Source: an uncultured bacterium (GTDB lineage Bacteria > Planctomycetota > Phycisphaerae > Phycisphaerales > SM1A02). Taken from it: DNA of 41,600 nt. A program made the position numbers and the translations under genes. Below, one piece after another: positions 6,466 through 27,385 of the stretch. The DNA is taken from positions 1 to 41,600 of the forward strand of contig CAIWCL010000181.1 in the NCBI GenBank assembly GCA_903911205.1. Direction: 5' to 3'. Positions within the stretch are counted from its first letter, which is position 1. Every line of letters begins with the position of its first letter. The notes below the pieces were generated by a model. That model was not told the DNA's origin. It saw nothing but the letters and a program-made list of their open reading frames with translations, and did not search any database.

Positions 6466-7124
6466 CGTGCACTCTCCAATCGCGTGCGTGTCATCGCACG
6501 GAGGTCAGTGCATCCAGAGCGACGCGCACGCCGCCCGATCAGAAGAAGATCGGGGCAGCACACAGCGCTCGCAATCGCGAGGTTGACGGCGCGTTTCCCG
6601 CGCGCCGCCCGCATCGATGTGGCACCTTGCCTCGCGGCCGGTTGCCGGAGCGCACGCCGCGTGTTGCGTGGCGCGCGCATCGCTCGGGATGCACTTTGGT
6701 TGTTGCGGTGTGCTCGGCCAACGCCACATGCGTCGGGCTCACCGACACACCGCATCAGACTCAAGAGCAGGGGCAGCCATGATCATCATGGTCGCTGCGA
6801 TCCTCGATTTTGCCCGTTTCTGGCTGTTTTTCGCCAGTTTTGGGCCGCATCGAACTAGCACCGTGGTCGGATTCAGGACTCGGTTGCCGAGCGGGCGAAC
6901 CCGCTGCTCTTGATGCTGACCGGAGGAATTTATCACCATTTCCGCATGAAGCCAACGTGCGGGCGTGGAGAATCGCGATATTTCCGCGTTGCGCTCCGAT
7001 GAGCGTCTCCCCGACAACACTGTTCCGCGACACGTTGAAGTCTTCCGAAGTCTGCCGAAGTTTGCCTTCGCTGGATTGAGGCTGCTTCCCCTGACGTGCC
7101 GATAGCCCACCAACCCAATTGCGT
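6466..7124. other. Intergenic region, 659 bp, divergent genes on both sides
   Basis: No ORF here has a credible start, composition or family resemblance; the track ORFs overlap one another on both strands. It must carry the promoters of the 311-aa gene (left, minus) and the pyruvyl transferase gene (right, plus). A perfect 6-bp stem with a UUCG loop on the minus strand (AGCGGG TTCG CCCGCT) lies at 6890-6905. A weak TGGC...GCCA hairpin before TTTT lies near 6830. No tRNA fold was found. Confidence 0.6.
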
Positions 7125-8432
7125 ATGACTTCAACTTCACGGCCCATCATCGCCGGCGTCGATTTTCGCAACCCAAACCTTGGCGTCAGTGCGCTTGGGT
7201 TGAGCGCGGTCGCACTCCTGTATCCGCGACTTGGCGCATGCGACGTCTTCGATTGGCGTCGGGGACATCGTCGTGCGGACGCTGAGATTTTGCGTCATGC
7301 CGGGATCGCGCAGTCGGGTGCCGCACAAGCCGCATTCGACATCATCGGTTGGAGTCAGACGCGGAAGTTTTGGCAATCCGACTCCTCGCTTCACGCCGTG
7401 ATCGCGCAGTACACGGGTCTCCCAATTGGGGTCGGCGCGAGCGCCATCGCTCGATCCTCGGGACTCCTCGACGCGAGCGGCGGCGATAGCTTCGCGGACA
7501 TTTATGGTTTGCGACGCTTCGTGCGCGTCACTCGCCCGAAGCAAATCGCGCTTGCGCTCAAGCGTCCCCTCGTACTTCTTCCACAAACCTACGGCCCATA
7601 TCGCGACCCGAAGTTGCGTGCGATCGCTGGTGACATCGTCGCGCGCGCGACATGTGCCGTCGCGCGCGATGCGCGCAGTTACGAAGTTCTCAAGGAAATC
7701 GTCGGCAATCGTTTTGATCCAGCGAAGCATCTTGTCGGAACCGACATGGCGTTTCGTCTGCCAACGATTGACCCTTCGGCACAGGCGCTCGAGGTTGTTG
7801 AGCGTGCGCGCACGATCGCGCGCGGCGCAGCGGTTGCGGGCTTCAACATCAGCGGCCTCATCGCGAATGCACCTGAGAGTTGGCGCGAGTACCGCTTCCG
7901 CGATGACTACTTCGCGACATGCGTCAAACTCGTTTCGCGTTTACTCGCCACAGGTGCGGGCGCTGTTGTGCTCGTCCCGCACGTCGTCATTCGCGGCAGC
8001 GCAGAAACCGAATCAGATATCCACGCGAGCGAGAAGTTGCTTGCAGCGCTTGCACCAGCGGAGCGCGAGCGCGTCGTCATCGCGCAGGGGTATGAATTCC
8101 CGACGGAGGCGAAAGCCATCATCAAGCGGCTTGATTGGTTCAGCGGCTCGCGGCTGCACGCAACAATCGGTTCTCTTTCGAATGGCGTCTCAACCGCGAC
8201 TATCGCGTACAGCGATAAGGCGCGCGGCATCTTCGAGGCTCTCGGCGTGGGCGACACCGTCGCCGACCCGCGCGTCCTTTCGAGTGATGAAGTGGTCGAG
8301 CATCAAGTGCGATGTTTCGCAGAGCGCGATCGACATCGCGCGGCCATCGCTGAGCGCTTGCCGGGAATTCTCGCCATCGCGGATCGGCAGATGGACGACA
8401 TTGCGCGTCTGTTGAAGACGCAGCGTGCGTGA
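7125..8432 (+). CDS. Polysaccharide pyruvyl transferase family protein
   Basis: A 435-aa protein resembling the PS_pyruv_trans family (CsaB/WcaK type), which transfers pyruvate ketals from phosphoenolpyruvate to sugars of surface polymers. Visible landmarks are GVDFRNPNLGVSALGLSAV near the N-terminus, GGDSFADIYG, the LPQTYGPYRDPKLRAIA core, a series of ARDARSYEVLKEI type, and a C-terminal SGSRLHATIGSL followed by YSDKARGIFEALG. The track begins at a TTG (7119); the ATG at 7125 is preferred. No signal peptide is present, consistent with a cytoplasmic enzyme. The gene opposes cysS and lies at the left end of the EPS locus, so it probably modifies that polymer. Confidence 0.85.
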   Translation: MTSTSRPIIAGVDFRNPNLGVSALGLSAVALLYPRLGACDVFDWRRGHRRADAEILRHAGIAQSGAAQAAFDIIGWSQTRKFWQSDSSLHAVIAQYTGLPIGVGASAIARSSGLLDASGGDSFADIYGLRRFVRVTRPKQIALALKRPLVLLPQTYGPYRDPKLRAIAGDIVARATCAVARDARSYEVLKEIVGNRFDPAKHLVGTDMAFRLPTIDPSAQALEVVERARTIARGAAVAGFNISGLIANAPESWREYRFRDDYFATCVKLVSRLLATGAGAVVLVPHVVIRGSAETESDIHASEKLLAALAPAERERVVIAQGYEFPTEAKAIIKRLDWFSGSRLHATIGSLSNGVSTATIAYSDKARGIFEALGVGDTVADPRVLSSDEVVEHQVRCFAERDRHRAAIAERLPGILAIADRQMDDIARLLKTQRA

Positions 8433-10055: not shown

Positions 10056-10664
10056 TCACGACCGCGTGTCAAACGCGCGCTCTCGAACAGGCACGGCCGG
10101 ATTCCCCGCGTAGATTTTCCACGCCGCGAGATCGCGCATGGCAACACCGCGGGCTCCGAGAATCGCGCCGGCGCCAACCGTCACGCCTGGGCCTACGAAT
10201 GCATCCGCGGCGATCCAGACATCATCACTGATCGATATTGCCGACCGGACAAGTGGCATCGATGCTCGCCGGTGATCGTGCGTTCCAGCGCAAAGATGGG
10301 CACCTTGCGAAACCGTGGTTCGATCACCAATCGTGACGGAACCAAGGCAGTAAAGAATCGCGCGATCGCCCACAGAACTCTCCGAACCGATCGACAGATT
10401 CCAAGGACACTCCACGAGCACGGTTCGACGTACGTTCGCCGAAGGAGCAAGGCGCGCGCCAAACAGACGGAGAAGGAACCGTCGAAATCCGTACCAGTTG
10501 TGAAAACTCGCACGGAAGAACGTTGCTTGCACCACTCCCCAAAGAAGTCGCTTGAGCTTCTCACCAAAGGAATATGGACTGACACGACGCGACTCGAGTG
10601 CACTCTCGGACGGCATCGCCTGCTGAAGAATCTTCCGATCTTCCTTCGGCGCATCGTCGTTCAT
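10056..10664 (-). CDS. WcaF-like putative colanic-acid-type acetyltransferase
   Basis: A 202-aa left-handed beta-helix (hexapeptide repeat) O-acetyltransferase. It has the long N-terminal lead seen in WcaF-type enzymes (SFGEKLKRLLWGVVQATFF, then FHNWYGFRRFLLRLFGA). The repeats follow, including LSIGSESSVGDRAILYC, VTIGDRTTVSQGAHLCAGTHDH (with the likely catalytic His), and VWIAADAFVGPGVTVGAGAILGA. It ends with the standard YAGNPAVPVRER. Acetyl-CoA is the expected donor and a lipid-linked sugar the acceptor. Its ATG overlaps the stop of the upstream glycosyltransferase (ATGA), which places both in one operon. Confidence 0.88.
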   Translation of the reverse strand: MNDDAPKEDRKILQQAMPSESALESRRVSPYSFGEKLKRLLWGVVQATFFRASFHNWYGFRRFLLRLFGARLAPSANVRRTVLVECPWNLSIGSESSVGDRAILYCLGSVTIGDRTTVSQGAHLCAGTHDHRRASMPLVRSAISISDDVWIAADAFVGPGVTVGAGAILGARGVAMRDLAAWKIYAGNPAVPVRERAFDTRS

Positions 10665-11920
10665 CGCGTCGTCTCCGAACTGCTCCGCGTCGCACGCACA
10701 CCGCCATGCTCATTGGCGACCTCTGTGAGCAACTCGAGCCATCGACGCATCGCATGTGGTGCACCAGCACGTTCGACGATGTGTTGTCGTGCACGCTCAC
10801 CCATTTCGGCCGCGAGCGCACGATCTGACGCGAGCCGCCGCAGTGATCGTGCAAAGCCATCGACGTCTCCTGGCGCAACGATGAACCCGCACCGCTGTTC
10901 TTCAATCGTCCGCGCAACCTCGCCAGTTCGCTCGCCGACGTACAAAATTGGGCGCGCAGCGGCCATGACGCCGTAGAACTTGCTCGGCACCATGATGCCG
11001 GTTGTTCCTTCAAGCAAACTCGCGAGGTGAATGTCTGCCGCGCCGAGCAAGTCATTGATCTTCTCACGCGGCTGGTATGGCGCCTCGATGAAGTTTGTCA
11101 GGCCTTTGGAACGAAGAATTCCCATCAACTCGTCTTTGCGCTTTCCGCCGCCGACAAACGCGAAGAGAACATTTGAATCCTCGCGGAGTGCCTCCACACC
11201 TCGTGCAATGGTCGTGACATCGTGACCAATTCCGAAGTTCCCCGAATACATCACGAGGAGGCGGTCGCCGACATTCCATTGCGCGCGATATGGATTCATC
11301 GCGCGATCGACCGGTCGCACCTCGTCGGGATCGGCCCAAACGTTGATCATCGCCAATCGACCCGCTGCGATGCCCTTTGCAGCAACTCGAGATCGCATGC
11401 ATCGGCCAAGCACGACTGCGCGATCCGCGCGTCGAATGCAAAATCGGTTCAGCCGCTCTAACACCCAAGTCAACGGTGAATGCGCGCTCATCACGCCACA
11501 TGCAACCGGAAGGTCTGGATAGAGATCCATGACCCAGTAGACACTGCGTGTTCCACGCACCAGTCGCAGCAACCAACCAATCAGCGCAACGAATGGCGGT
11601 GTTGTGAAGCAGATCACAACATCTTGCCGGCGCATATTGAAAGACCGCCACAGCGCCGCTGCGTAGAAGAGACCGAAGTCAAACATACGCGCCGCGATCG
11701 ACGACTTTCCGAAGATGCTCTTTCCGACGCGAACGATGCGAATGCCGTCGACGATTTCCTCGCGCGGAAGCACGGCTCCCTTTTCACCGTAAATCGATCG
11801 CGATGAAATCGCCGTGACCTCGTGGCCCTGTGAAACCAGAAATCGAGCAAGGTCATGCGCATGTTGCGCCGTCGCCGCAATATCCGGATAGAAGGTTTGG
11901 TTGATCAGGAGGACGCGCAT
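10661..11920 (-). CDS. Glycosyltransferase, GT4 family (WbuB-like)
   Basis: A 419-aa GT-B fold glycosyltransferase. The start at 11920 (MRVLLINQTFYPDIAATAQHAHDLA) is chosen over the track start at 12022 because GGGAGG lies about 5 nt upstream and the family begins this way. The N-terminal acceptor domain contains VYWVMDLYPDLP. The C-terminal GT4 domain shows VMYSGNFGIGHD, EAPYQPREKINDLLGAADIHLA and the EGTTGIMVPSKFYGVMAAARPILYV nucleotide-sugar region. It resembles WbuB-type transferases of O-antigen and capsule loci, probably using an N-acetylated aminosugar; the exact substrate cannot be read. It overlaps the fcl stop by 16 bp. Confidence 0.9.
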   Translation of the reverse strand: MRVLLINQTFYPDIAATAQHAHDLARFLVSQGHEVTAISSRSIYGEKGAVLPREEIVDGIRIVRVGKSIFGKSSIAARMFDFGLFYAAALWRSFNMRRQDVVICFTTPPFVALIGWLLRLVRGTRSVYWVMDLYPDLPVACGVMSAHSPLTWVLERLNRFCIRRADRAVVLGRCMRSRVAAKGIAAGRLAMINVWADPDEVRPVDRAMNPYRAQWNVGDRLLVMYSGNFGIGHDVTTIARGVEALREDSNVLFAFVGGGKRKDELMGILRSKGLTNFIEAPYQPREKINDLLGAADIHLASLLEGTTGIMVPSKFYGVMAAARPILYVGERTGEVARTIEEQRCGFIVAPGDVDGFARSLRRLASDRALAAEMGERARQHIVERAGAPHAMRRWLELLTEVANEHGGVRATRSSSETTR

Positions 11921-12978
11921 GGAGCCTCCCCAAGACGCTGGCCGTTCGCGCCCAAACTTGAAGCAGGGTGTGTGGTTGGGTGTGTGGTTGGATTCGAGGC
12001 TTGGAGCGTGGCTCGGTACCACTCAACGGTCTTTCGCAGTCCATCGCGGAGCGACGTCTTCGCGCTCCAACCTAGGAGCGCGGCGGCGCGCGCACTGTCT
12101 ACACAGCGGCGTGGCTGACCGTCCGGCTTCGATGCATCCCAGCGGATGTTGCCCTTGAACTCACAGATCTCTGCGACAAGTTCCACAAGATCACGGATCG
12201 TGATTTCACCGCCCGTGCCAAGATTGATCGGCATCGGATCATCGATCACTTCCGCCGCACGCACGATGCCTTCTGCCGCGTCGTCGACGTACAGAAACTC
12301 ACGGCTCGCAGAACCTGTTCCCCAACACTCGATCTCCGCGCGCGCGGCGAGCTGTGCTTCAAGACATTTGCGCACGAGCGCCGGAATGACATGTGAGGTC
12401 GCTGGATCAAAGTTGTCGTGCGGCCCGTAGAGATTCACCGGCAAGACGTACGCCGATGCAAGACCGTACTGGCGGCGGTAGCTATCCAACATGACCAGCG
12501 CGGCCTTCTTCGCTACCCCGTACGGCGCGTTCGTCTCTTCGGGGTACCCGTTCCAGAGTTCGTCTTCACGGAAAGGAACTGGTGTGTATTTGGGATAGGA
12601 GCAGATCGTTCCGGTATGGACGAACTTCCGTATCCCCGCACGACGCGCTGCTTCAATGAGATGAAGCGACATTGCCATGTTGGCGTAGAAGTATCGACCC
12701 GGGTTCGCTTGGTTCGCGCCGATTCCACCAACCTCTGCCGCGAGATGAATGATGACCTCCGGTTTTGCATCGTCGAAGAGTCGTGCAACCCCATGTTCAG
12801 TCGTGAGGTCGTAGTCGCGACGCCGTGGAACAAACGGCTCTGGCAACCCGCGCGCCTTTAAGGCGGCAAGCACGGCCCGACCGAGAAAGCCTGCGCCGCC
12901 GGTCACGACGACGCGCGATCCGGCCAGAGTTCCGCTCGCGGAAGAGGAATTGAACGAGGCATGCGTCGACATCGACAT
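11905..12978 (-). CDS. fcl: GDP-L-fucose synthase (NAD-dependent epimerase/reductase family)
   Basis: A 357-aa short-chain-dehydrogenase-like enzyme that epimerises and reduces GDP-4-keto-6-deoxymannose to GDP-L-fucose. The NADP-binding motif is VVTGGAGFLGRAV. The family segment EVGGIGANQANPGRYFYAN and the catalytic tyrosine and lysine in YGVAKKAAL are visible, as is LYGPHDNFDPATSHVIPALVRK near the substrate site. The track start is a GTG at 13032; the ATG at 12978 gives a normal N-terminus (ATG 12972 is an alternative). The C-terminus ends in an unusual PTTHPTTHP tail made by a 12-bp tandem duplication. The partner gene gmd lies divergently at 14398 rather than adjacent in the same operon. 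Confidence 0.9.
   Translation of the reverse strand: MSMSTHASFNSSSASGTLAGSRVVVTGGAGFLGRAVLAALKARGLPEPFVPRRRDYDLTTEHGVARLFDDAKPEVIIHLAAEVGGIGANQANPGRYFYANMAMSLHLIEAARRAGIRKFVHTGTICSYPKYTPVPFREDELWNGYPEETNAPYGVAKKAALVMLDSYRRQYGLASAYVLPVNLYGPHDNFDPATSHVIPALVRKCLEAQLAARAEIECWGTGSASREFLYVDDAAEGIVRAAEVIDDPMPINLGTGGEITIRDLVELVAEICEFKGNIRWDASKPDGQPRRCVDSARAAALLGWSAKTSLRDGLRKTVEWYRATLQASNPTTHPTTHPASSLGANGQRLGEAPCASS
11967..11990. repeat. 12-bp tandem duplication in the 3' end of fcl
   Basis: GGTGTGTGGTTG occurs twice in a row (11967-11978, 11979-11990). On the minus strand it gives PTTHPTTHP in the Fcl tail without shifting the frame. Confidence 0.85.
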
Positions 12979-13033
12979 CCACAAACCAGCTTTCAGACTC
13001 CAGCGCTCTATCGGCCACCACACCAAGCGCACT

Positions 13034-14194
13034 TCATCTCATTCCCGGGTATACGACGCTCTGCCCCATGGCCTTCGCGTAGGACTCGTCAGCGAAACGA
13101 GCGAGAGCCTCCCAGTCGAGATTTGTTCGCACCCACGATTGCGCCCGCGTCCCGAGATCGCGTGCGGCCGCGTGGTCACCGGTGTATCGAACAAGTGCGT
13201 CAGCGAAGCCCTCGTCGGTATCCGGTGCCACACAAAGCGCTCCCGCCTCACCCGCCCCGTCCAACTTGCATTCCTTGGTGGTCACCACCGGCTTGCCGGC
13301 AGCCATTCCCTCCACCACCGTGATTCCGAAGCCCTCGAATCGGGGCCGATGCGCGAACACGGAACAGGCCGCGAATGCCGATCGCTTGATCTCGCCGAAG
13401 AGCCCGCCGACCAGATGAACGTGCTGGCGAAGGGAAAGGGAGTCGATCAACGCGTCGATTTCGGCTTTGCAGCCATCATCCGGGCCGGCAATGACGAGGG
13501 CATGCGTACAACCTCGCGTTCGCGCCAGGCTGTAACTCCGTATCAATTGATCAATACCTTTGATTGGGTGAATACGTCCAACAAAGAGTATGAACGACTG
13601 TTTTGAGAACTGCGGGAACTTCTCAAGGAAGAGATTCGGGCTGGCGTGGCTGTACTCGCCCGCATCAATTCCATTCGCGAGAACAGAACTCCTGCATCCA
13701 AATCGCTTTGCGACGTAGTCGGCCTCTTCCCGGTTCAGAGAGTACAACTCGCGCGCACCGCCAATGATCTGAGGAAATAGGGTTAAATACACCCATTTCT
13801 TCAGTCGCTTTTGGGAGAGAACGTAAGGATGTAGCATTCCATGAGTCGAAATGACGTACGGAACATCTCGTCGACGGGCCTTTGCGGCGGTTGTCCGGAC
13901 AAAGGACTCCCACATGCAGTGGATGTGGATGATCTTGGGCTGAAGGCGCTCGATGTGCCGGTCCATCGCTCCTCGACGAGCGGAAGGATCCAAAAGCGAG
14001 AAGTCCGTGAAGTCGATTGGAAGTCCACTCCACGTCTCCATCAGCGCGGCGCGCTGCTCTGGCCTCCGAGGACCGCGGTTGCAGATGACGGCAACTCGTC
14101 GTCCAGAGCGAGCCTGATGCCGGGCGAACTCAATGACCACGGTCGGGGGTCCGCCGCTTTCTGGGAAGAGATTTTCGATGACGTGCAGAATCAT
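13034..14194 (-). CDS. Glycosyltransferase, GT4 family
   Basis: A 386-aa GT-B glycosyltransferase. The N-terminus MILHVIENLFPESGGPPTVV is the usual lead with a Gly-rich turn, and IIHIHCMWESF is the acceptor-domain edge. The C-terminal GT4 part shows FVGRIHPIKGIDQLIRSY, AGPDDGCKAEIDAL and the EX7E region FEGFGITVVEGMAAGKPVVTT. It presumably adds a sugar to the lipid-linked repeat unit on the cytoplasmic face. The start ATG at 14194 has no clear Shine-Dalgarno. It is the first gene of the minus-strand run 14194-10056 and lies 55 bp ahead of fcl. Confidence 0.9.
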   Translation of the reverse strand: MILHVIENLFPESGGPPTVVIEFARHQARSGRRVAVICNRGPRRPEQRAALMETWSGLPIDFTDFSLLDPSARRGAMDRHIERLQPKIIHIHCMWESFVRTTAAKARRRDVPYVISTHGMLHPYVLSQKRLKKWVYLTLFPQIIGGARELYSLNREEADYVAKRFGCRSSVLANGIDAGEYSHASPNLFLEKFPQFSKQSFILFVGRIHPIKGIDQLIRSYSLARTRGCTHALVIAGPDDGCKAEIDALIDSLSLRQHVHLVGGLFGEIKRSAFAACSVFAHRPRFEGFGITVVEGMAAGKPVVTTKECKLDGAGEAGALCVAPDTDEGFADALVRYTGDHAAARDLGTRAQSWVRTNLDWEALARFADESYAKAMGQSVVYPGMR

Positions 14195-15444
<1,250 letters not shown>

Positions 15445-15506: not shown

Positions 15507-17111
15507 ATGCACGTACTCGCCACCGTTCTTGGTGCACTCGCCTGTGTCTTTCCTGCAACGTCATGCGTGGGCATGGAGCAGAGCCAAGTTGGGCAGCCAA
15601 AGGCACAGCTCGAGCGGAAATCGCTTTGGGCTGCCACTTGGAAGCCTGTTCCGTCGGATTGCGTGACGTTGACGGAGATGATCTTCGTCGAGGGCCAATT
15701 CGTTCCGGGTCAACCAAGCGCCATGCCGGATCCTCTCGCGGCCGCGCGGCGGAGCAAGATGCTTCCTGAGGGTCGTGCTGCGTTGCACTGGTGGCGATAT
15801 TCCAACAGTCTCTTCACCGCGCGCGTTGACAACGCTGTGGTCGGAGGAGTTCCGAGTCCAACAATCCCATCACCATGGGCTAATTTCGCAGCCGTTGAGA
15901 CGCGACGCGAGTGGACCGAGTGGCTCCGTCAGTTCCAGAGCGCCGGCGGCAAGCTGGACTACCTCATCGGTGACTATGAGCAATGGGGAGGACTCAAAAA
16001 CTGGGGCCTCAAGCCGGGCGCCGCGGCGACAATTGCTGCGGATCCGCGCGCGAGCCGACCAATGTGGGGCGCGCAACCCTTGTCAGTTCTGCTTCAAGGT
16101 GTCCGTCTCGATCGCATTGACGACTTCACGAATTCCCCTGATTACCTGCAGTGGAATCGCGCGATCAGCACTCTGACAGCGGCGGCGATGAACTATGCGA
16201 TCTTCGAGCCCGCACGCGCGATGTTTCCCGCCGTGAAAGGCAGCAACTACGCTGGCATGCGCATGGTCGATCAACCAGGACCGGATGCGAATGGGCATCC
16301 TCAACCTTGGGACAACCTTTTCGGCACAGCATCCGCACCCGCTGAGTACGGGATGATTGAGGGTTCTGCGCGAGCGTGGTTCATCGATCCCACCGATCCA
16401 ACAAAGTTGTCGAAGCAAGGCACGACCCGGATCACGTTCGAACCGTGGTTCTCCTTTGTCACCGACATCCAACAAGCACGCTCCTGTCGACGAACAGCGC
16501 CGCGAGTACCGCTCCAACCGTGGGTCGCGTTCGCACACTGGCCTGGCACTACTGGTCAAGTCGCGTATCCATCCGACCAACGTTACTGGGATGAGATGGT
16601 TCGACACTTCGCGTTACTCGGCACCGAGATGTTCAACTTCTGGAATCCGACCACCGTCGACAATCCCGATACAGGGCCATGGGCCACCGTGCCAGATCGC
16701 GATGGTGGCGCGAGGCGACTTGATCGCGTGCTGCGCGATCTCAATACACGCCTGCAAGGAGTCGTGGTCCGTCACGCAAGTGCGGCGCCTATCTCGTATC
16801 TCGCCGATGTTGTAACGAGTGGTGGACAACGACCGGACGGAACATGGCTCTGGCGTACAACGGTGCGCCCTGGAGTGATTGCGCTGCGAGATCGCAAGAC
16901 AAAGGTGATGGTGTCACTCGAAGACAATTCGGTCGGACGTTGGGATGTCACAGCCGAGCCAACAGCGCCCGACTATGAACCCATCAAGGGACCTGTCGGA
17001 AAGGGCTCAAGCAGTACTGTGCCCGCTGGCGCACCAAGCAGGACGCCAATGAAGACCCCCAGCAAAACGTCGAGCAAGACTCTAAGCAAGGCTCCCACCA
17101 GTTCGCGGTGA
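15507..17111 (+). CDS. Uncharacterised exported protein within EPS locus
   Basis: A 534-aa protein not assigned to a family. The Shine-Dalgarno is a long G run (GGGGGGGGA) 6 nt before ATG. The N-terminus MHVLATVLGALACVFPATSC is hydrophobic and signal-like, with Cys13 and Cys20; a lipoprotein is possible but neither Cys sits in a standard lipobox. The mature part is rich in Trp and aromatic residues (ALHWWRYSNS, GDYEQWGGLKNW, FEPWFSF), with acidic residues that could be catalytic. This look is typical of carbohydrate-active or carbohydrate-binding proteins. The last 30 residues are a Ser/Thr/Lys tail built from 12-bp repeats. Its position right after gmd suggests a role in polymer processing or export; this is inference. 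Confidence 0.8.
   Translation: MHVLATVLGALACVFPATSCVGMEQSQVGQPKAQLERKSLWAATWKPVPSDCVTLTEMIFVEGQFVPGQPSAMPDPLAAARRSKMLPEGRAALHWWRYSNSLFTARVDNAVVGGVPSPTIPSPWANFAAVETRREWTEWLRQFQSAGGKLDYLIGDYEQWGGLKNWGLKPGAAATIAADPRASRPMWGAQPLSVLLQGVRLDRIDDFTNSPDYLQWNRAISTLTAAAMNYAIFEPARAMFPAVKGSNYAGMRMVDQPGPDANGHPQPWDNLFGTASAPAEYGMIEGSARAWFIDPTDPTKLSKQGTTRITFEPWFSFVTDIQQARSCRRTAPRVPLQPWVAFAHWPGTTGQVAYPSDQRYWDEMVRHFALLGTEMFNFWNPTTVDNPDTGPWATVPDRDGGARRLDRVLRDLNTRLQGVVVRHASAAPISYLADVVTSGGQRPDGTWLWRTTVRPGVIALRDRKTKVMVSLEDNSVGRWDVTAEPTAPDYEPIKGPVGKGSSSTVPAGAPSRTPMKTPSKTSSKTLSKAPTSSR
17037..17096 (+). repeat. 12-bp repeats encoding a (S/T)K(T)-rich C-terminal tail
   Basis: Five diverged 12-bp units (AGCAGGACGCCA, ATGAAGACCCCC, AGCAAAACGTCG, AGCAAGACTCTA, AGCAAGGCTCCC) at the 3' end of the exported-protein gene. 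They translate to a four-residue periodic tail. Confidence 0.75.
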
Positions 17112-17234: not shown

Positions 17235-18785
17235 TCAGATTGGCGATGGTCCACGCGCAATCGCCGCGCCACCCATGTGTTCAGGAAGCTGCGTCGCGTT
17301 GTCGCTGTGAGCGTGCTGCCCACTCGTTCGAGCGCCTTCGTCGAACTCGCCGTCCGAAACGCCGTCGAACTCGGTTTCAAGCGATGCATCGTGTGATGCA
17401 TGTCCATTGATTTCTGCGATCTCTTCATCGCTCATGCGGAGACGCTCACCGAAGAACGTACTCATGCCAAGGATGGCGTAGTTCCACACAACGGCGTACG
17501 CAAGGATGCCGAGGAAGAAGCCCTCGAACACCGATCCGACGAGCATGATGGCCACAGATGCGAGCATGAGATCGGCATGGTCAGGATCGACCTTGCCCGC
17601 ACGTCGAGCTCGCAGCGCGGTGACACCGACACCAATCACACCAAGAATCAAGAAGGCAAGCGGGATACCACCAGAGATACCCATGAGCGAGAGAGTCGAG
17701 AGGTACGTCGACTCTGCACTACTGATGTTCTCGTCGGACCGCATGTTGATGGTGCCGAACAGTGGCGCCTGACGGAAGTCATCCATGAGGCGGAGCCACA
17801 CGCCGCGTCGCGTGTTTTCTCCACTGACGAAGCGCCCAATACCCTCAAAGCTCTCGCTGAAGAGCGACGCACCAATGAGTACGACAATCGCACCCACACC
17901 CATCACGATCGCAAATCGACCGATGCGGAATCGGAAATAGGTCAACAAACCCGCCATCCCGCAAAGGAGCGCTGTTCGTGAACCCGACCATAGTAAGAAG
18001 AGCGCGAGGAAGCCAAGCGTCACGCCGTAGACCCATCGAATGGTCGATCCGAGTGGCTTGCGAGAGAAGAGGTGCGTCAGCACGAGAATGAACGTCGCGC
18101 AGATATAGCCAAGGAGCTGGGGGTTTCCAGAGATACCGAGGAGGCGATTTCCAGCGACCGCGTTTCGATACCCGAGGAGTAACTGCGTGACATTGAGCAC
18201 CACGAAAACGGCTGCGGCGAATCCGAACATCCCGAGATAACGGTCGACGTCATCATCCTCGCCAATCTTCTTGGCGAATCCAACTCCCAACGTCGCGAAG
18301 AGAAGAAGGTCTGCAACCCAGCCAAGACCTGCACGCGTGGTATCCCCGTTCATCGCAAGACGTACGAGGAAGAGTGTCTGGAAGAAGAAAAACGCAACAA
18401 GCACAAAATTCACTTTGTGCCGTCTCACCCCTGCCGGCGCGATGAGTAGGTTCAAGGCAAGGGCAAACAACACTCCGAACGTAATCACCTTCGTCAGGTT
18501 GCGCACCGTATTGAGCGGCTCAACGAGTGTGTTATCGAAGTACTTGTTGTCGTGGTACATCATGGTCATACAAGTGATGACCACTGCGCCACCGATGTAC
18601 GCGCCGTCTCTGCGAAAGGCGATCGCCGAAAGCAGCAACCCACCCAGGATTGCGCCAAGCATCCCGATGGGCGTCAGCAAAAGCTGGAACGCCAATTGAA
18701 TGACGCCCGTGACCGATGCCGCTTGATCTTGCCCTTGGGCAAGAATCATGGCTGGAAAAATGTTCGACGAGACCTCGAGTGACAT
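17235..18785 (-). CDS. O-antigen ligase/polymerase-like membrane protein (Wzy-like)
   Basis: A 516-aa multi-pass membrane protein with about 10-12 hydrophobic segments, for example LLLTPIGMLGAILGGLLLSAIAF, FVLVAFFFFQTLFLV and GVTLGFLALFLLWSGSRTALLCGMAGLL. The WSGSRTALL motif and the long periplasmic loop (FSESFEGIGRFVSGENTRRGVWLRLMDDF) are typical of the Wzy_C/WaaL superfamily, which polymerises or ligates undecaprenyl-linked repeats. The C-terminal tail of about 70 residues is soluble and acidic (DGVSDGEFDEG). GGGAG lies 8 nt upstream of ATG 18785. It follows the flippase gene on the same strand with a 75-bp gap. Confidence 0.85.
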   Translation of the reverse strand: MSLEVSSNIFPAMILAQGQDQAASVTGVIQLAFQLLLTPIGMLGAILGGLLLSAIAFRRDGAYIGGAVVITCMTMMYHDNKYFDNTLVEPLNTVRNLTKVITFGVLFALALNLLIAPAGVRRHKVNFVLVAFFFFQTLFLVRLAMNGDTTRAGLGWVADLLLFATLGVGFAKKIGEDDDVDRYLGMFGFAAAVFVVLNVTQLLLGYRNAVAGNRLLGISGNPQLLGYICATFILVLTHLFSRKPLGSTIRWVYGVTLGFLALFLLWSGSRTALLCGMAGLLTYFRFRIGRFAIVMGVGAIVVLIGASLFSESFEGIGRFVSGENTRRGVWLRLMDDFRQAPLFGTINMRSDENISSAESTYLSTLSLMGISGGIPLAFLILGVIGVGVTALRARRAGKVDPDHADLMLASVAIMLVGSVFEGFFLGILAYAVVWNYAILGMSTFFGERLRMSDEEIAEINGHASHDASLETEFDGVSDGEFDEGARTSGQHAHSDNATQLPEHMGGAAIARGPSPI

Positions 18786-18860: not shown

Positions 18861-20456
18861 TCAATTGGTGCGCCGGCGCGCGAACTTGCTGACGATCCTT
18901 CTTCCGTGAACGAGGAAGTCTGATCGTACGCCTGTGTCCGTAAACACGTTCGCCAGAATGGCCGCAAGAAGGACGAGCGGTCCGGCGACAAGGAGTGTCG
19001 CCAGTGGACCCCAGGACCCAGGCAGTGCATCACCAAGGAATGGCCCAAGTATCAGCAATGCAGCCATAAATGGAAGTGTCACCAGCCAGGGACGTGCGAT
19101 CTGGATCATGACGGATCCCAATCCGAGATCGGCGCGCCGTCCGCAGAGATACATCCCAACCACCGAAGAAACGCCCCAGCCCGCTCCACTCGCAACAGCA
19201 ATCGCGGTTGCGTGCCCCGCGGCAGAGCTCGCGGGAATACCGATCGCGAGCATCGCGTGAGGAATGGTCTCGTCAAAGTACCGAGCGAAAATGGCGAACA
19301 AGCCCGCGGAAAAGAGAAGTTGTCCGAACTGCCAAAAGAGAGCGGTACGGAACCTTCCCTGTGCCTTCAGCATGGTGAACGAAAGCGTCACGACAAAGAC
19401 GGACGCCTGTGCAATCGAGAGTGCGAAGAAGACACCGATGGAGCTCTTCCACTCCGGTTCAAACAGCAGCTGAAAGAGTGGCTCGGCGAGTGCCGCTTGG
19501 ACGAGGGAGATCGGAATGATGACTGCCGCGGCCATCCGAAGCACACGGAGGAAAGCCTCGACTTGACGCTCTGCATCATGGGACAGATGCGAAAATATCG
19601 GCTGCAAAACCGAGACAAACTGCGAATTCACCAGTGCATTCGCCTGCACCGCGAGTTGAAACGCCAGCGCGAAATAGCCTTGCTCGACTTGCGTGGCAAA
19701 GGCCCAAAGAATCAGTGGTTCCAGCGTGCCGACAACATTGTGCGCATACTGCCCAATTCCCGCGAGTCCAGACCGATGAACAATGTCTGCGGTCACTCCC
19801 GGAACGATGCGGTGATCAATGCGCGCGCGACAGATTCGCTGGAAGAGCACCGCTCGAATAGCCAACGCGCCAATCGGTGGGAGAACGATTGCGATCGGAC
19901 CCGCACCTCCCCACGCAAGCAGCACTGTTCCACAGGTCCCTAGGAAAGTTGCCAGACCATCAATGAGAGCGATGCGACGGTACTCAAGGTCGAGACGCAT
20001 GCGCGCGCTTGGCAACACCAAGAACGCGTCCGCAAGTGGACGAAGCGCAACAAAGAGAAGGACAAAGGCGATTCCCGCGGTTCCACTGAACCACTCGATT
20101 GGATAGGCGATCGCAACAAGCAGTAGAAAGAGACCGCCCCCTGCGAAGTATGCGAGTCTTCTCGCGGCACCAGACAAGTCGTGAAAGCGGCGTGGCTCCG
20201 AAAGCAGAACATCGCCAAACACCGTCGGCGAGACGAAGAAAACAAACGCTCCGACGGTCACTGCAACGTTGGCAAGCCCAACCTCTGCTGGCGACAAGAG
20301 CCGCGCAACGATCCACATGGCGAACAAGGTGATGACCTTGTTGCCGATGGTTTGTGTGGTTGTGAAAATCGAACCCGAGAGCGCTGGCTTCGCGAAACCG
20401 CTTTGGCCCACCGTTGGGCTTGAGTCTGTTCCAAGCGCATCTTCAGTCGGGGTCAT
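18861..20456 (-). CDS. Polysaccharide flippase, Wzx/oligosaccharide exporter family
   Basis: A 531-aa integral membrane protein with about 12-14 hydrophobic segments. It starts SGSIFTTTQTIGNKVITLFAMWIVARLLSPAEVGLANVAVT, the usual opening of WzxC/PST-type flippases, which move undecaprenyl-linked repeat units across the inner membrane. The second half shows LEPLILWAFATQVEQGYFALAFQL and similar paired helices. A soluble, basic C-terminus ends KFARRRTN. The start follows the UDP-sugar dehydrogenase stop by 4 bp, so translation is probably coupled; no separate Shine-Dalgarno is seen. Confidence 0.88.
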   Translation of the reverse strand: MTPTEDALGTDSSPTVGQSGFAKPALSGSIFTTTQTIGNKVITLFAMWIVARLLSPAEVGLANVAVTVGAFVFFVSPTVFGDVLLSEPRRFHDLSGAARRLAYFAGGGLFLLLVAIAYPIEWFSGTAGIAFVLLFVALRPLADAFLVLPSARMRLDLEYRRIALIDGLATFLGTCGTVLLAWGGAGPIAIVLPPIGALAIRAVLFQRICRARIDHRIVPGVTADIVHRSGLAGIGQYAHNVVGTLEPLILWAFATQVEQGYFALAFQLAVQANALVNSQFVSVLQPIFSHLSHDAERQVEAFLRVLRMAAAVIIPISLVQAALAEPLFQLLFEPEWKSSIGVFFALSIAQASVFVVTLSFTMLKAQGRFRTALFWQFGQLLFSAGLFAIFARYFDETIPHAMLAIGIPASSAAGHATAIAVASGAGWGVSSVVGMYLCGRRADLGLGSVMIQIARPWLVTLPFMAALLILGPFLGDALPGSWGPLATLLVAGPLVLLAAILANVFTDTGVRSDFLVHGRRIVSKFARRRTN

Positions 20457-20460
20457 CGAT

Positions 20461-21819
20461 TCAGGCGCGGGTCAGCCGCGGTCCCATCTCGCGCTCAAAC
20501 GTGCGCATGGCGTCTCGAGTATCGACGCAGAGTTTCGCGTTGCGCGCGATCACTCCGTAGTCCATCTTCGAGTGTGCCGTCGAAATGAGCACGCAGTCAT
20601 AGCTTGCGATGGTCTTCTCGTCGTACGCAACAGACGTCATCTTGAGGTCGTGCTTGCGGCCCGCCCACGTTGCTGGCACGAGGGGATCGTAGTAATCAAC
20701 CTGCGCGCCGCGCGCTTTACAAAGCTCGATGAGTTCGAACGAGGGGCTCTCGCGCACGTCGTCGATGTCGGCCTTGTACGCAAGACCGACCACGAGAATG
20801 CGCGAGCCCTTCATCGGCTTGCCTTGATTGTTGAGCGCCTCGGCAGTGCGGTCGACAACGTAGTGCGGCATCGATGTGTTGATCTCGCCGGCGAGCTCAA
20901 TGAAACGCGTCGAATGTCCGTACTCGCGTGCCTTCCATGTGAGATAGAAGGGATCAATCGGAATGCAGTGTCCACCGAGACCCGGGCCTGGATAGAACGG
21001 CATAAATCCGAATGGCTTCGTTCCCGCGGCGCGCACGACATCCCAGACATCGATGCCCATCGCGTCGAGAACAACCTTCATTTCATTCACGAGTGCGATG
21101 TTCACCGCGCGGAAGATGTTCTCAAGCAACTTCGCACTTTCCGCGATTTCCGCGGTCTTCACCGGAACCACTGTCGTCACGCCCTTGCGATAGACCGCGG
21201 CAGCCAGTTCTGTCGATGCGTCATCAAGACCGCCGACAAGCTTCGGAATCGTGCTTGTGGAGTGAGACTTTCGACCTGGATCTTCGCGTTCCGGGCTAAA
21301 CGCACCGAAAATCTCTCGGCCAATCTCAAGACTCTTCGCACGATCGCCAGCCGCAGCCATGATTGCCGGCATCATGTCGTCGCGCGTTGTGCGCGGATAG
21401 GTTGTCGATTCCAGGATGACGAGCTGGCCAGCGCGCAGCGTTTTGCCGATCGCTTCTGCGGTCTGCAGGATGTACGAAATGTCTGGTTCCCAGTGCTTAC
21501 CGAGTGGAGTCGGCACGCAGATGATGATGACATCCGCCTCGCCAAGACGTCCAAAGTCTGTCGTACCTTCAAAGCGCTTGGAATCGCGCAGCGTTGTGAT
21601 CAATTCATCACCAAGGTGAACGAGGTAGTTGCGTCCCGCCTTGATCGCGTCAATCTTCGCTTGATCGATATCGAAGCCAAGGATGGGCAATCCGCCTTGG
21701 TGGAGCGCGTGCGCGAGCGGCAGGCCGACGTAGCCAAGACCAATGACACCGATCTTCGCTTCACAGCGCTCGATACGGGCGAGAAGATTCGACGCGATGC
21801 TGTTCATTGCTACGGACAT
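20461..21819 (-). CDS. Nucleotide sugar dehydrogenase (UDP-N-acetylhexosamine 6-dehydrogenase type)
   Basis: A 452-aa enzyme that oxidises the C6 hydroxyl of a UDP-sugar to a uronate using two NAD. The Rossmann motif is GVIGLGYVGLPLAHAL. VPTPLGKHWEPDISYI, ESTTYPRTTRDDMMP and SPEREDPGRKSH are typical of the WbpA/TviB branch, which uses UDP-GlcNAc or UDP-ManNAc rather than UDP-glucose. The catalytic Cys is in GPGLGGHCIPIDPFYLTW. The C-terminal domain has GLAYKADIDDVRESPSFELI. AAGGAA lies 6 nt before ATG 21819. It leads the run dehydrogenase-wzx-wzy on the minus strand. Substrate choice cannot be fixed from motifs alone. Confidence 0.92.
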   Translation of the reverse strand: MSVAMNSIASNLLARIERCEAKIGVIGLGYVGLPLAHALHQGGLPILGFDIDQAKIDAIKAGRNYLVHLGDELITTLRDSKRFEGTTDFGRLGEADVIIICVPTPLGKHWEPDISYILQTAEAIGKTLRAGQLVILESTTYPRTTRDDMMPAIMAAAGDRAKSLEIGREIFGAFSPEREDPGRKSHSTSTIPKLVGGLDDASTELAAAVYRKGVTTVVPVKTAEIAESAKLLENIFRAVNIALVNEMKVVLDAMGIDVWDVVRAAGTKPFGFMPFYPGPGLGGHCIPIDPFYLTWKAREYGHSTRFIELAGEINTSMPHYVVDRTAEALNNQGKPMKGSRILVVGLAYKADIDDVRESPSFELIELCKARGAQVDYYDPLVPATWAGRKHDLKMTSVAYDEKTIASYDCVLISTAHSKMDYGVIARNAKLCVDTRDAMRTFEREMGPRLTRA

Positions 21820-21941: not shown

Positions 21942-22424
21942 TCATCCCGTTATCGAGACGCGGGCACGTATCTCGCCGCCATCGGAGGGCGATGGCGACG
22001 CGGTCGGCAATTCCTGCATGGTCGACGCCGAGCGATTTTCCTTCGCAAGTTCGCCGATGCACATGCTCCACGTCTCGCGCTCAAAGCGGAGGAGCGAGAG
22101 TGCTTCGTCGACCTTGGACGGATCGCGTCCGGAGCTTGCCTCAACAAGAAGGCGGTACAGATAGGTGTACAGCGAACTCAGGCGTTGGCAAAGTTCTGGC
22201 GCCTGATCTGGACGGAGCGCATTGATGAGCTCCATCAAAATTGCCTGCGTCTTCGTTGTCCCGTCAAAGCTGAGTTCGAAGTCGCGCGTTTCGTAGCCCC
22301 GCTTCGTTTGCTCAGCGAAGCGGATGGCGCCGTCGAGAAGCATGAGCCGGAGCTCCGCGGGGCTCGCGGTCATCACTTTCGTGCGGAGGTACGCTTGGGG
22401 TCCGGAAGAGGTTTGCATAGCCAT
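21942..22424 (-). CDS. fliS: Flagellin chaperone FliS
   Basis: A 160-aa cytoplasmic export chaperone that binds flagellin. The start ATG 22424 (MAMQTSSGPQAYLRTKVMTASPAELRLMLLDGAI) is chosen because FliS proteins begin with a YLxxxV helix; the track start at 22502 adds 26 unlikely residues. The four-helix core is visible: LMLLDGAIRFAEQTKRGYE, the KTQAILMELINALRPD helix, LCQRLSSLYTYLYRLLVEAS and a final helix LLRFERETWSMCI. The C-terminal 30 residues are low-complexity (TASPSPSDGG). It lies 106 bp downstream of fliD on the same strand. Confidence 0.9.
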   Translation of the reverse strand: MAMQTSSGPQAYLRTKVMTASPAELRLMLLDGAIRFAEQTKRGYETRDFELSFDGTTKTQAILMELINALRPDQAPELCQRLSSLYTYLYRLLVEASSGRDPSKVDEALSLLRFERETWSMCIGELAKENRSASTMQELPTASPSPSDGGEIRARVSITG

Positions 22425-22530
22425 CGGCTCTCTGATCGGCGGTTCTGATCGACAACTTTCGTCACTTGACCGAGGCGCGCGGTGATCTTGAGGTTGATCC
22501 ACAGGTCACAAGCAATGCGACGCCATTCGA

Positions 22531-25500
22531 CTATCCCATCATCGCGACGTTCGCCGACAGTGCGCCGAGCGACGACTGCTGCGTCTGCAACTTGGCGAGC
22601 GCGGACTCCATCGCGGCAAACTGCGCGACGTAGCGCGCACGCTTCGAGTCGAGCCGAGCGTCATATCGCTCAAGACGTTCCTTCAAACCATCGAGTTGTT
22701 CTTGCATGCCACGATCAGCAACCGTGGTCACGCCGTCCACCGAGTTGGTCAGCTTCTTCAGTAATTGATCGAACAGATCGCCAAAGCCGAGTTTGGAATA
22801 GGACGTCGTTGTCTGCTCGACGGTGACGCCTGCGACAGGTGAGTTCGACGATGTCGACTGAATCTCGAACGCCGTGAAGAGTTCTTCGACCGCGCCAGGA
22901 TCTATGTCATACGCAGCGCGGAACTTCGCCTCGTCAAACTGCAACTGCCCTTCTTTACCGAAGCGGATTCCAACCTGCGAGAGATAGCGGTAACGACCCT
23001 CAACACCCTTCGCTGGACCCTGCGCAGTCTGAATGATCTGCTGACGGACGCGCGCAACAACCGGGTTGCCGAGGAGTGGGCCCTTCTTCTTTGTTTCGTC
23101 GTCGTACTTGTCGTAGTCGCCGATACGTCCAAGTGCATCATTGATGGTCGTGACGAGTTGCTTGACGCCATCCACCATGCCGGTCACATTGCGTGCGACA
23201 TCGACATTGACTGTGGCTCCAGCCTTCTTCGCATCGATCTCAAGTCCCGACACAACGTCTTTGAATGAGTTCGTCGAACTTGTGTAAAGAAACGCAGTCG
23301 CAGGATCGCCTGTTCCAAGAAAGAGCGACGCATCAAGACCTTCGCTCGTACGAACCATGCCGAGATCGACGGAACCCGTGTCCATCAAGAGTTGACCACG
23401 AGATCCCCCGACCGTCGAACTCACACTGAGTCGGAAGGGCTGGGTTCCAGTACCTGCGTTCACGATCGATGCGGCAAGCGGGATCTTCGCTTCATTCAAT
23501 TTGCGAACAACATCCGCAAGCGTGTCGGTCGTTTCAAGATCAACCGTCTTCTCGAGTGAGCCCACCAAATTCGCGCCCGCAGATGCTGCTTGACCAGCGA
23601 GGCCAAGTCCTTTCGATACCGCGCCGCTCACATCTGCGACTTTGATGGCGGTGGATGGTGTTCCTGTGTTGGTATCGACGAGTTCAATCCCGTCGCCGGT
23701 CGCGTTCAAACGAGCCTCGACGAAGAGTCCGCGCGAATTGATTTCACTCAAGACGTCGTAGACTGTTGTCGCGCTGGCATCGATATCAACCACGGCACTT
23801 TCGCCGCTGGAATCGGTGATTCGAAACGTACCTGTTCCAACGCCCTTTCCAAATGCGAGCGAAGAGAGCTTTGTGCCGAGCGCAAAGTGTTGACGATCGA
23901 GATCGCCGCCGCGAACCACATCGCCCGCCACACTTGCAGAGAGGCCCAACACCGACGCGGCTGCGCCTGTGACACTCATCGTGCCGTTGCCGTCGCCAAT
24001 GTCACGAGCCATGAGGCCACGGCCGCTGTCGGACACCTCAAGGCGGACATCAACACCATTGTCCTTCGCTAACGCGTTGATCGCGTGAACGAGTCCCGCC
24101 ACCGTGTCGTGGGCTGCGAAGTCCGTAAAGTCGAAGGTGTTGCCGTTGCGATCCGTGAGCGTCAACGGTCCCGGCGATCCGATACCACTTCCTCCGTACA
24201 AGCGCGTGAGGCGCACGGTTCCCACCGCAGCTGCAATGCGCGTACTCGTGACGGAGCCCGTTCCTGACAAACCGAACAATCCGAGATCTCGAGCGGTACG
24301 TTCCCCCACCGCTGTACCGAACGATGAACCGTCTGTTGTGCCGGCGAGGACCTCAACCGTCGATCCGCCCGCGACAGAGAGTGTGAGGCTGGTTCCACTC
24401 GACGCGATCGATGCCGTGACTGCACCTGACGTCTGGTCCGCGATGCGCGCAATCACATCTTCAACTGTGGATGCACGTGGAGTCGCCACCTTGTTGCGAA
24501 CGACGCCTCCAGTAAGCGTCGTTGGACCCGTATCAATCGCGCCCGTGAAGATGCCAAGATCCTTCGCTGCGCGATCAAGATTGGGTCCTGAACCTAAGAC
24601 CTTCACGGGGCCAGAACCACCCGTGTTGTCGGTGACGACAAAGCCCTTGCCGTCGCCGCGCAGTGAAACAACGACTTGTCCCGCACCGAGATCGCTCTCA
24701 AGTTCGGAGTTGATGCGTGTGAGCATCTCCCCCACGGTCTTCACCGCTTCGTCCTGTACTTCGCCATCAACAACGACCGCGCCGAGATTGATCCCAACTG
24801 TGACGCCCGTGGATGTCACGATCTTGAAATCATCCGCATCAGTCGTATTGATCTTGACGCCAAGCCCGTTATTGAGATCGGCGAGCTTTGTTGTGTTCGT
24901 GATCGGTTGGTCTTCGCGACCGAGCGAGATGTCGTAGGTCGTTCCGTCGACTTTGATACGGAAGTCAACGACTCCGTCGCGTACGAAGACGCCTGTGCCA
25001 TCATTCAGTGAGGCCAGCGCAGTGGAGGGACCGATTTGGTTGAGCTGTGTGCCGCTGACTTGCTGAGAAACGTGTGTGCCACGAATACCAAGCTGTGCAG
25101 CGATCAATCCACTGCCAACATCTGCGATCACGAGTGCGCCAGTACCACCGGACGCATCGTTGATCACGAGTCGCTCATTCTCGATGTACGCGTCAAGCTC
25201 TGTATTGCTTGCAGCGTTGATGCGATCTATGACATCTTTCAATGTCACCGCCGTCGAGAGATCAATCGTGTCTTCGCGGCCGAGCCCATCTTTGATCGTG
25301 ATCTTGCCACGCGCGACGCCCTCGCCACCTCGAAGATCAGAAAGCGCTAGGTCGCGCTCCAAACCGGCATCACCCCACTCGAAACTCAGGTTGTCGAGTC
25401 CAAGTGGCGTCGCATCTTTCGTCGCGAATCCTCGCGAGAGAATTTGGCTTGTCGAGACGAGCCGTCCAACCGTGAATTGGTAACTTCCGGGCGGCGTGTC

Positions 25501-25770
25501 TTTTGACGCACGAGCCGCGAGCGATGTCTCATCCGCGCTTGTCGCGGTCATCGCGGTGAAGACGTTTCCAATACGAAGGTTCGACGAGGCGTTCCTCAGG
25601 TTCAACAGACGTGCGTTGACATCGAGCAGCGCGGTCTTTGCCGTCTGCAGCACGCTGTAGCGCTGTTGGATCGGGAGTTTTCCACGTGACTCCAGTGCCA
25701 ACAACTGCTCGATGATCTGCGTCGAGTTGATGCCACTGACGAGTCCAATGCCTGTCGAGATCCCAGACAT
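22531..25770 (-). CDS. fliD: Flagellar filament capping protein FliD, unusually long
   Basis: A 1079-aa hook-associated protein 2; the cap protein in enterobacteria and pseudomonads is roughly 450-670 aa. FliD_N is at about residues 8-108 (GLVSGINSTQIIEQLLALE, SVLQTAKTALLDVNARL). FliD_C is at about 835-1070, ending with a coiled helix (LKERLERYDARLDSKRARYVAQFAAMESALAKL). Between them lie about seven flagellin-hook IN-like motifs, near residues 178 (TLKDVIDRIN), 297, 347 (TVGEMLTRIN), 438 (TVEDVIARI), 557, 670 (TVYDVLSEIN) and 750 (TLADVVRKLN). Each is followed by a beta-rich segment, so the outer part of the cap is expanded. The family assignment is firm; the repeat count is by eye. Confidence 0.93.
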   Translation of the reverse strand: MSGISTGIGLVSGINSTQIIEQLLALESRGKLPIQQRYSVLQTAKTALLDVNARLLNLRNASSNLRIGNVFTAMTATSADETSLAARASKDTPPGSYQFTVGRLVSTSQILSRGFATKDATPLGLDNLSFEWGDAGLERDLALSDLRGGEGVARGKITIKDGLGREDTIDLSTAVTLKDVIDRINAASNTELDAYIENERLVINDASGGTGALVIADVGSGLIAAQLGIRGTHVSQQVSGTQLNQIGPSTALASLNDGTGVFVRDGVVDFRIKVDGTTYDISLGREDQPITNTTKLADLNNGLGVKINTTDADDFKIVTSTGVTVGINLGAVVVDGEVQDEAVKTVGEMLTRINSELESDLGAGQVVVSLRGDGKGFVVTDNTGGSGPVKVLGSGPNLDRAAKDLGIFTGAIDTGPTTLTGGVVRNKVATPRASTVEDVIARIADQTSGAVTASIASSGTSLTLSVAGGSTVEVLAGTTDGSSFGTAVGERTARDLGLFGLSGTGSVTSTRIAAAVGTVRLTRLYGGSGIGSPGPLTLTDRNGNTFDFTDFAAHDTVAGLVHAINALAKDNGVDVRLEVSDSGRGLMARDIGDGNGTMSVTGAAASVLGLSASVAGDVVRGGDLDRQHFALGTKLSSLAFGKGVGTGTFRITDSSGESAVVDIDASATTVYDVLSEINSRGLFVEARLNATGDGIELVDTNTGTPSTAIKVADVSGAVSKGLGLAGQAASAGANLVGSLEKTVDLETTDTLADVVRKLNEAKIPLAASIVNAGTGTQPFRLSVSSTVGGSRGQLLMDTGSVDLGMVRTSEGLDASLFLGTGDPATAFLYTSSTNSFKDVVSGLEIDAKKAGATVNVDVARNVTGMVDGVKQLVTTINDALGRIGDYDKYDDETKKKGPLLGNPVVARVRQQIIQTAQGPAKGVEGRYRYLSQVGIRFGKEGQLQFDEAKFRAAYDIDPGAVEELFTAFEIQSTSSNSPVAGVTVEQTTTSYSKLGFGDLFDQLLKKLTNSVDGVTTVADRGMQEQLDGLKERLERYDARLDSKRARYVAQFAAMESALAKLQTQQSSLGALSANVAMMG

Positions 25771-26194: not shown

Positions 26195-27286
26195 TTATCG
26201 GCCGCCAAAACCGATCTTTTGCATCAGCCCGTCGAACTGATCGAGCGTGTAGAAGTCCAGGACGAGTCGTCCTGACCCTTTCTTGCGCCCCAGTTGGAGG
26301 CTGACGCGTGTTCCAAGGTAGTCTGCGAGCTGTTTTTCGAGATCCGCGACATTGGCATCTCGGGCAGTCGGTTCCTTGGATGTGCCCTGAGAGGTTTCCC
26401 CTCCAACAGATGGACGCTTGTGACCGGACTGGACCTGCCGTTCCAGCTCTCGCACTGACCAATCGTTGGCGAGCACTTTGGCCGCGAGCTCTGCGCGACG
26501 GGCGATATCAGTCACTCCGAGCAAGGCTTTCGCGTGACCCTGGGTGATTTTCCCAGCTCGAACGAGATCCGAAGTCGAACGATCAAGATCGGCGAGACGC
26601 AGCAAATTCGTGACGGACGCCCGATCCAATCCGACACGATCAGCAATCTCCTGATGTGTCAGGTTGAAGTCACTGGACAGCCGCTTCAGCGCAACGGCAC
26701 GCTCCATGGGATTCAGATCTTCACGCTGAATGTTCTCAATAAGGGCGAGTTCAGCAGCGGTTTGGTCGTCGATGTCCTTGACCACCGCAGGGATTTTGGA
26801 CATCCCAAGCAGCTTCGCAGCACGCCAGCGACGCTCTCCCGCGATGAGTTCATAGCCCCTGTCAGTGCTGCGAACCACTATGGGCTGCATAAGCCCAGCC
26901 TGCTTGATGGAGGCAGCGAGTGACTGAAGGGCTTCTTCAGAGAAGTCCGTTCTAGGTTGGCGACGGTTTGGATAGACCTGTTCCACGTGGATGTCACGGA
27001 CGAACGAGCTCTCTGGCGGCGAAGAGGCGATTCCATCTGTCCCCTCCTCGGTCGTTTCTGCCATGGAACCACTGGTGGAGGCGGCTGAAATCGACGACGG
27101 AGACTTGGGGATTGCCTGCGATGGTGCACTGGTTCCAACGGCCGGAACAGGGGTACGAGCGGCAGGAAGCCCAGGGCTCACCGCCGGCCCAGGGACCTGG
27201 ATCTGCACCGGCGACCCCAGGAGGGCACTTAAGCCACGGCCAAGTTTGCGAACAGGACTCTTCCCACTTTGATCTGTTTGGCTCAT
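26195..27286 (-). CDS. parB: Chromosome partitioning protein ParB
   Basis: A 363-aa parS-binding CTPase clamp of the chromosome segregation system. ATG 27286 (GAGG about 8 nt upstream) is preferred over the track start at 27346, which would run across a parS site. The N-terminal ParA-contact motif is KLGRGLSALLG, then a Pro/Ser/Thr linker of about 90 residues, longer than usual. The ParB N domain shows VYPNRRQPRTDF, the CTP-binding AGERRWRAAKLLG, and ENIQREDLNPMERA. The helix-turn-helix reads HQEIADRVGLDRASVTNLLRLADL. The C-terminal dimerisation part ends SGRLVLDFYTLDQFDGLM. parA is not in this window although the ParA-contact motif is intact, so it is presumably encoded elsewhere. Confidence 0.96.
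   Translation of the reverse strand: MSQTDQSGKSPVRKLGRGLSALLGSPVQIQVPGPAVSPGLPAARTPVPAVGTSAPSQAIPKSPSSISAASTSGSMAETTEEGTDGIASSPPESSFVRDIHVEQVYPNRRQPRTDFSEEALQSLAASIKQAGLMQPIVVRSTDRGYELIAGERRWRAAKLLGMSKIPAVVKDIDDQTAAELALIENIQREDLNPMERAVALKRLSSDFNLTHQEIADRVGLDRASVTNLLRLADLDRSTSDLVRAGKITQGHAKALLGVTDIARRAELAAKVLANDWSVRELERQVQSGHKRPSVGGETSQGTSKEPTARDANVADLEKQLADYLGTRVSLQLGRKKGSGRLVLDFYTLDQFDGLMQKIGFGGR
26979..26994. other. parS-like site inside parB
   Basis: TGTTCCACGTGGATGT keeps the left half and the CACGTG core of the parS consensus (TGTTNCACGTGAAACA) but has a degenerate right arm. It lies in the coding sequence of parB; parS sites inside spo0J/parB are known in other bacteria. Confidence 0.55.
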
Positions 27287-27306
27287 ATCAGCGCCTCGCT
27301 TTGAGA

Positions 27307-27322
27307 TGTTCCACGTGGAACA
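27307..27322. other. parS site
   Basis: TGTTCCACGTGGAACA is a perfect 16-bp palindrome and differs from the widely conserved parS consensus at one position. It is 20 bp upstream of the parB start, where bound ParB could also affect parB transcription. Confidence 0.9.
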
Positions 27323-27385
27323 GTCGGTGTTATCCCGAGGACCCACACGACTGTCAACTCTTTCGGCTGGTGAATCTCAAGACAT

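Follow-up and report, generated by a model that had tools for sequence, protein, structure and literature searches.

The gene at 15507-17111 (+) of the window, by which we mean the whole stretch of 41,600 nucleotides analysed here, lies in an EPS locus and is genetically paired with one subfamily of Wzy polymerases. Considering its predicted fold, its conserved site, this pairing and the precedents of PslG and WceF, we think it probable that the gene product represents a new family of exported barrel glycosidases and cuts the polymer of the paired Wzy.

The gene and its place in the EPS locus

The open reading frame begins with ATG and encodes a protein of 534 amino acids. The earlier note had described it as an exported, aromatic-rich protein with an acidic DYEQW motif inside an EPS locus. 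The location was confirmed, with gmd directly upstream on the same strand and a wzy-wzx run on the opposite strand downstream, as was the motif, which corresponds to residues 156-160. The aromatic richness held for tryptophan (22 residues, 4.1%, the highest value among the reading frames listed for the window) but not for total aromatics, which at 9.6% are ordinary. A hydrophobic segment (Kyte-Doolittle 2.6) spans residues 3-14, and five homologues from the same genus have one as well; in the window protein, no Lys or Arg precedes it. Judged from its sequence, the protein is likely exported. A scan for promoters and terminators gave signal at or below the shuffled expectation. The surrounding genes are as follows.

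7119-8432 (+): polysaccharide pyruvyl transferase, just past CysS (PF04230)
10056-10664 (-): hexapeptide acetyltransferase, WcaF-like (below cut-off)
10661-12022 (-): glycosyltransferase, WcaI-like (below cut-off)
11905-13032 (-): epimerase, best match GDP-L-fucose synthase (below cut-off)
13034-14194 (-): GT4-type glycosyltransferase
14398-15444 (+): gmd, GDP-mannose 4,6-dehydratase (TIGR01472 above cut-off)
15507-17111 (+): gene under study, exported TIM-barrel protein (open reading frame, homologues and alignment; AlphaFold model; export and barrel predicted)
17235-18785 (-): wzy, membrane protein of the Wzy_C polymerase/ligase family and closest genetic partner (PF04932, E 1.9e-5, below cut-off; family profile and co-occurrence)
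18861-20456 (-): Wzx-type flippase (PF13440, E 7.7e-30)
20461-21819 (-): nucleotide sugar dehydrogenase (TIGR03026 above cut-off)

The presence of gmd, the GDP-fucose-synthase-like epimerase, the sugar dehydrogenase, the WcaI- and WcaF-like proteins and the pyruvyl transferase suggests that the polymer may be colanic-acid-like and bear fucose, uronate and pyruvate, several of these assignments lying below curated cut-offs; the pyruvyl transferase by itself suggests a pyruvylated polymer. Beyond the locus, fliS and fliD (21942-25770, -) directly adjoin it in nearly all genomes of the same genus examined, and a ParB homologue (26195-27346, -), a possible marker of the origin region, lies nearby.

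An unnamed protein family

Orthologues in the same genus share 47-51% protein identity, with one at 34%, and 48 members of the family could be aligned; the reading frame thus belongs, on sequence grounds, to a real conserved family rather than being a chance ORF. The family profile matched 46 of the 181 genomes of the family-level group and, in the wider class, 25 of 397 sampled genomes; it also gave weak matches in two more families of the phylum, and matches were rare outside the class. Single-protein scans of genome contigs and viral contigs returned zero relatives, whereas a search with a sister-subgroup alignment did find relatives, among them members in two records titled Candidatus Zipacnadia and Candidatus Paceibacterota, the latter possibly a binning error. 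The titles of the named relatives are mostly those of MAGs of Planctomycetota, Phycisphaerales or Phycisphaerae.

No credible match to the window protein or to the 48 aligned members was found in Pfam, NCBIfam or the PDB sequences, curated cut-offs not being reached, in keeping with the earlier note, which could name no family; the family has no Pfam or NCBI model and is so far unnamed. Matches to a peptide amidase (weak), HflK_N, Ika8/Ika4 and PRK07486 were single or short and were discarded. Elsewhere, family members are fused to heparinase II/III-like domains, to dockerin, or to DUF4838 with a weak CBM9 match. The last of these arrangements was observed in L188:986-4729, which comes from a record titled Candidatus Paceibacterota and may be mis-binned.

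Predicted fold and candidate active site

The AlphaFold model built from the 48-row alignment (pLDDT 92.9, pTM 0.92) shows a barrel and, after it, a C-terminal beta domain. The features of the protein, all on the + strand, are as follows.

15507-15572 (+): hydrophobic N-terminal export segment, residues 1-22 (predicted from hydrophobicity of the sequence)
15627-16754 (+): predicted barrel domain, residues ~41-416 (AlphaFold model)
15972-15980 (+): D156-x-E158, candidate catalytic acids, located where predicted strand 4 ends (kept in 45/48 and 43/48 members; strand from the model)
16041-16043 (+): D179, invariant (48/48)
16245-16247 (+): N247, end of predicted strand 5 (kept in 44/48)
16593-16595 (+): E363, invariant (48/48), where the helix after predicted strand 7 begins
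16809-16988 (+): C-terminal beta domain, residues ~435-494 (AlphaFold model)
17010-17108 (+): Ser/Thr/Pro/Lys-rich tail (sequence)

W339 is also invariant in the alignment. Members that have lost E158 (L013, L069 and L077) also lack N247, and this joint loss fits the decay of one functional site; in L011, Asp takes the place of E158.

In the fold search against the PDB (Foldseek), the matches listed with E <1e-3 were glycoside hydrolases of several clans, PslG standing at ranks 3, 4 and 7 (E 2e-5, TM 0.34-0.40). Superposition on the PDB matches was poor (TM 0.2-0.4, large rmsd), and since the matches are also spread over several clans, the search supports a fold class and not a CAZy family. 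The structure prediction called for in the earlier note thus returned a confident barrel with glycosidase fold matches, though weakly superposed. A viral fold library gave low scores only. Where the earlier note had left a choice among a polysaccharide hydrolase, a lyase and a binding protein, the fold and the conserved acidic residues favour a glycoside hydrolase.

Assignment to known families was considered at the level of the site. Enzymes of clan GH-A have one glutamate where strand 4 ends and another where strand 7 ends, the nucleophile being on strand 7. In the window protein E158 lies at predicted strand 4, but no acid is present on predicted strand 7 (PWVA) in the members shown, and the glutamate pair of this clan is not matched. 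The GH18 motif is DxxDxDxE, with a D-x-E pair on strand 4 of the type found in GH18 and GH56, and the window segment DYLIGDYE matches three of its four acidic positions (D at -7, D at -2, and E), but the -4 position is hydrophobic and not Asp. GH18 was rejected on this difference and on the lack of any Pfam match at E<=1 in the 48 members. The resemblance of D-x-E...NW to GH56 was likewise set aside, no Pfam profile match at E<=1 being found in any of the 48 members.

Pairing with wzy and association with EPS genes

With a profile of the window's wzy (E <1e-130), 11 genomes of the family-level group were detected; in every one of them the family gene lies on the same contig as wzy, within ~2 kb of it. 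For the presence of the gene alone, its distance from wzy left aside, the chance probability is 1e-7 when counted by genomes, which are not independent, and 0.0025 when counted by genera. The two are collinear neighbours in six genomes (G009, G462, G463, G464, G476 and G477). Within the genus, close wzy homologues were found in four of the six genomes with the gene and in none of the ten without it (p 0.008), eight of these ten having a different type of polymerase; in G002 and G010, the gene lies in an EPS locus without this wzy beside it. The tightest genetic partner is wzy rather than gmd, which is also found in genomes without the gene. The fucose-containing polymer to which the earlier note had linked the protein remains plausible, with gmd above its cut-off and GDP-fucose synthase as a best match below it, although wzy is the closer partner.

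Association with EPS genes was also seen further out in the family. Among 142 genes called around 27 family members outside the close homologues, GDP_Man_Dehyd and Glycos_transf_1 were each counted nine times, Wzy_C eight times and Polysacc_synt_3 six times, compared with at most one each in a control set of 142 genes taken from these and related genomes. With iterated profiles, seven of the 27 sites proved to have a homologue of the window's wzy no more than three genes away from the family member. In the tree, the window protein falls in a clade of 11 rows (support 100), ten of which are flanked by EPS-synthesis genes; for the remaining one, L054, the contig is 3.4 kb long, and the only such neighbour visible is a 22-residue piece of a glycosyltransferase at the contig edge. 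Other branches show EPS linkage again, the label requiring six changes on the tree, a number as low as which was reached in 0 of 500 shuffles. Because roughly two in three of the distant members sampled are not in recognisable EPS loci, the family as a whole is not tied to EPS; the co-occurrence proposed in the earlier note thus held for the protein's own clade but not for these distant members. Also observed in the same EPS loci was an exported protein that combines an SGNH-like GDSN motif with a dockerin at its C-terminus (L109:3825-5822, with homologues in L019 and L117); it may be a polymer de-esterase.

A variable centre of the locus

Compared with the window, other genomes of the genus show 80-98% identity in gmd, the sugar dehydrogenase and CysS, and mostly 37-50% in wzx, wzy and the gene; wzx-wzy-gene is, by this sequence comparison, a variable, serotype-like centre of the locus. 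The close relative G011 has a gmd with 97% identity but neither the gene nor wzy, and its gmd abuts wzx; in G006, the gene and wzy together form a block that is inverted compared with the window. The copy in G009 (L006, L019) groups in the tree with genus g17 rather than with its own genus and shares the gene order of g17, suggesting cassette transfer or mis-binning.

In the sister genomes G005 and G014, the slot between gmd and a polymerase holds an unrelated exported protein (L112:7137-8834 and L111:8634-10451), whose predicted fold matches ZgGH129 (E 1.5e-11, TM 0.54). With the motifs WGLWWGH, GLDAF and CTEG, it belongs to a second unnamed exported family, present in 12 of the 181 genomes, and comparison with the window protein indicated no sequence relation (hhalign probability 0.2). 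Judging from the models, exported glycosidase-like proteins from more than one family can occupy the slot, which holds no such protein in other genomes of the genus.

Proposed function and alternative explanations

We propose the following scenario. After export, the protein would cut the polysaccharide built by the adjoining Wzx/Wzy system, either to trim its chains or to remove polymer left behind in the periplasm; D156 and E158, and possibly E363, would serve as catalytic acids. A more specific and rather speculative extension, to which we give a low probability, is that the gene and wzy form an exchangeable two-gene module in which a polymerase-matched exported glycosidase sets polymer length. 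Such a role is possible because Wzz (PF02706) was found above the Pfam cut-off in 0 of 16 genomes of the genus, though Wzx/Wzy loci are present, and 8 of 14 controls were positive.

The protein might instead be a barrel lectin without catalytic activity, binding the polymer and aiding Wzy or export, for instance as a factor for chain length or assembly. A lectin would suit the single acid pair evident on the strands, the abundance of tryptophan, as in sugar-binding proteins, and the existence of clearly degenerate members (L013, L069 and L077). However, the window's clade keeps the D-x-E pair, N247 and E363, with the one exception of an N-to-A change in L006, and binding alone would not demand this. 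We therefore regard a lectin as unlikely, though it is the strongest of the competing explanations. A transglycosidase, or another enzyme that links or modifies the polymer (e.g. in anchoring) and does not degrade it, would suit a partner that matches PF04932, a family of O-antigen ligases as well as polymerases, and with which the gene travels; the occupation of the same places in the sister genomes by a glycosidase-like protein and another polymerase argues against it, and we consider it improbable.

The distant members outside EPS loci, some of them fused to a heparinase-like or dockerin domain, raise the further question of whether the protein is a scavenging enzyme for foreign polysaccharide that stands in the EPS locus by chance. 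EPS linkage almost throughout the window's clade, its recurrence on other branches, and the loss, inversion and pairing of the gene together with wzy all speak against chance placement, and this explanation appears slightly less probable still. A glycosidase acting on the polymer of the paired Wzy thus remains the reading that we prefer.

Comparison with known systems

Why EPS gene clusters carry glycosidases has been described as an open question (PMC9075953). Here, an enzyme-like, unnamed family is linked to a single polymerase subfamily, and in two genomes with a different polymerase its place is taken by an unrelated glycosidase-like protein, a pairing that makes it testable whether each polymerase needs its own cutter. 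If the proposal is true, the family would add a barrel group beyond Pfam and NCBIfam, in mostly uncultured Planctomycetota.

PslG of Pseudomonas aeruginosa is a glycosidase encoded in an EPS operon and needed for normal Psl production, and its catalytic glutamates are E165 and E276 (PMC9075953). It has been found at the inner membrane and periplasm. Like the window protein it is encoded within an EPS locus and is a barrel, solved for PslG (4zn2, 5bx9, 9g17) and predicted for the window protein; unlike PslG, the window protein has no acid on predicted strand 7 to correspond to a second catalytic glutamate, and the two sequences do not match. WceF of Pantoea stewartii is a glycan-cutting enzyme likewise tied to a Wzy-type EPS cluster, and its loss lengthens stewartan (PMC7949094), though its fold is tailspike-like in contrast to the predicted barrel of the window protein. 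A parallel in position is the ZgGH129-like slot protein of the sister genomes (L112, L111), which is unrelated in sequence and shares with the window protein its place in the locus, between gmd and a polymerase, its probable export and a predicted barrel-type enzyme fold.
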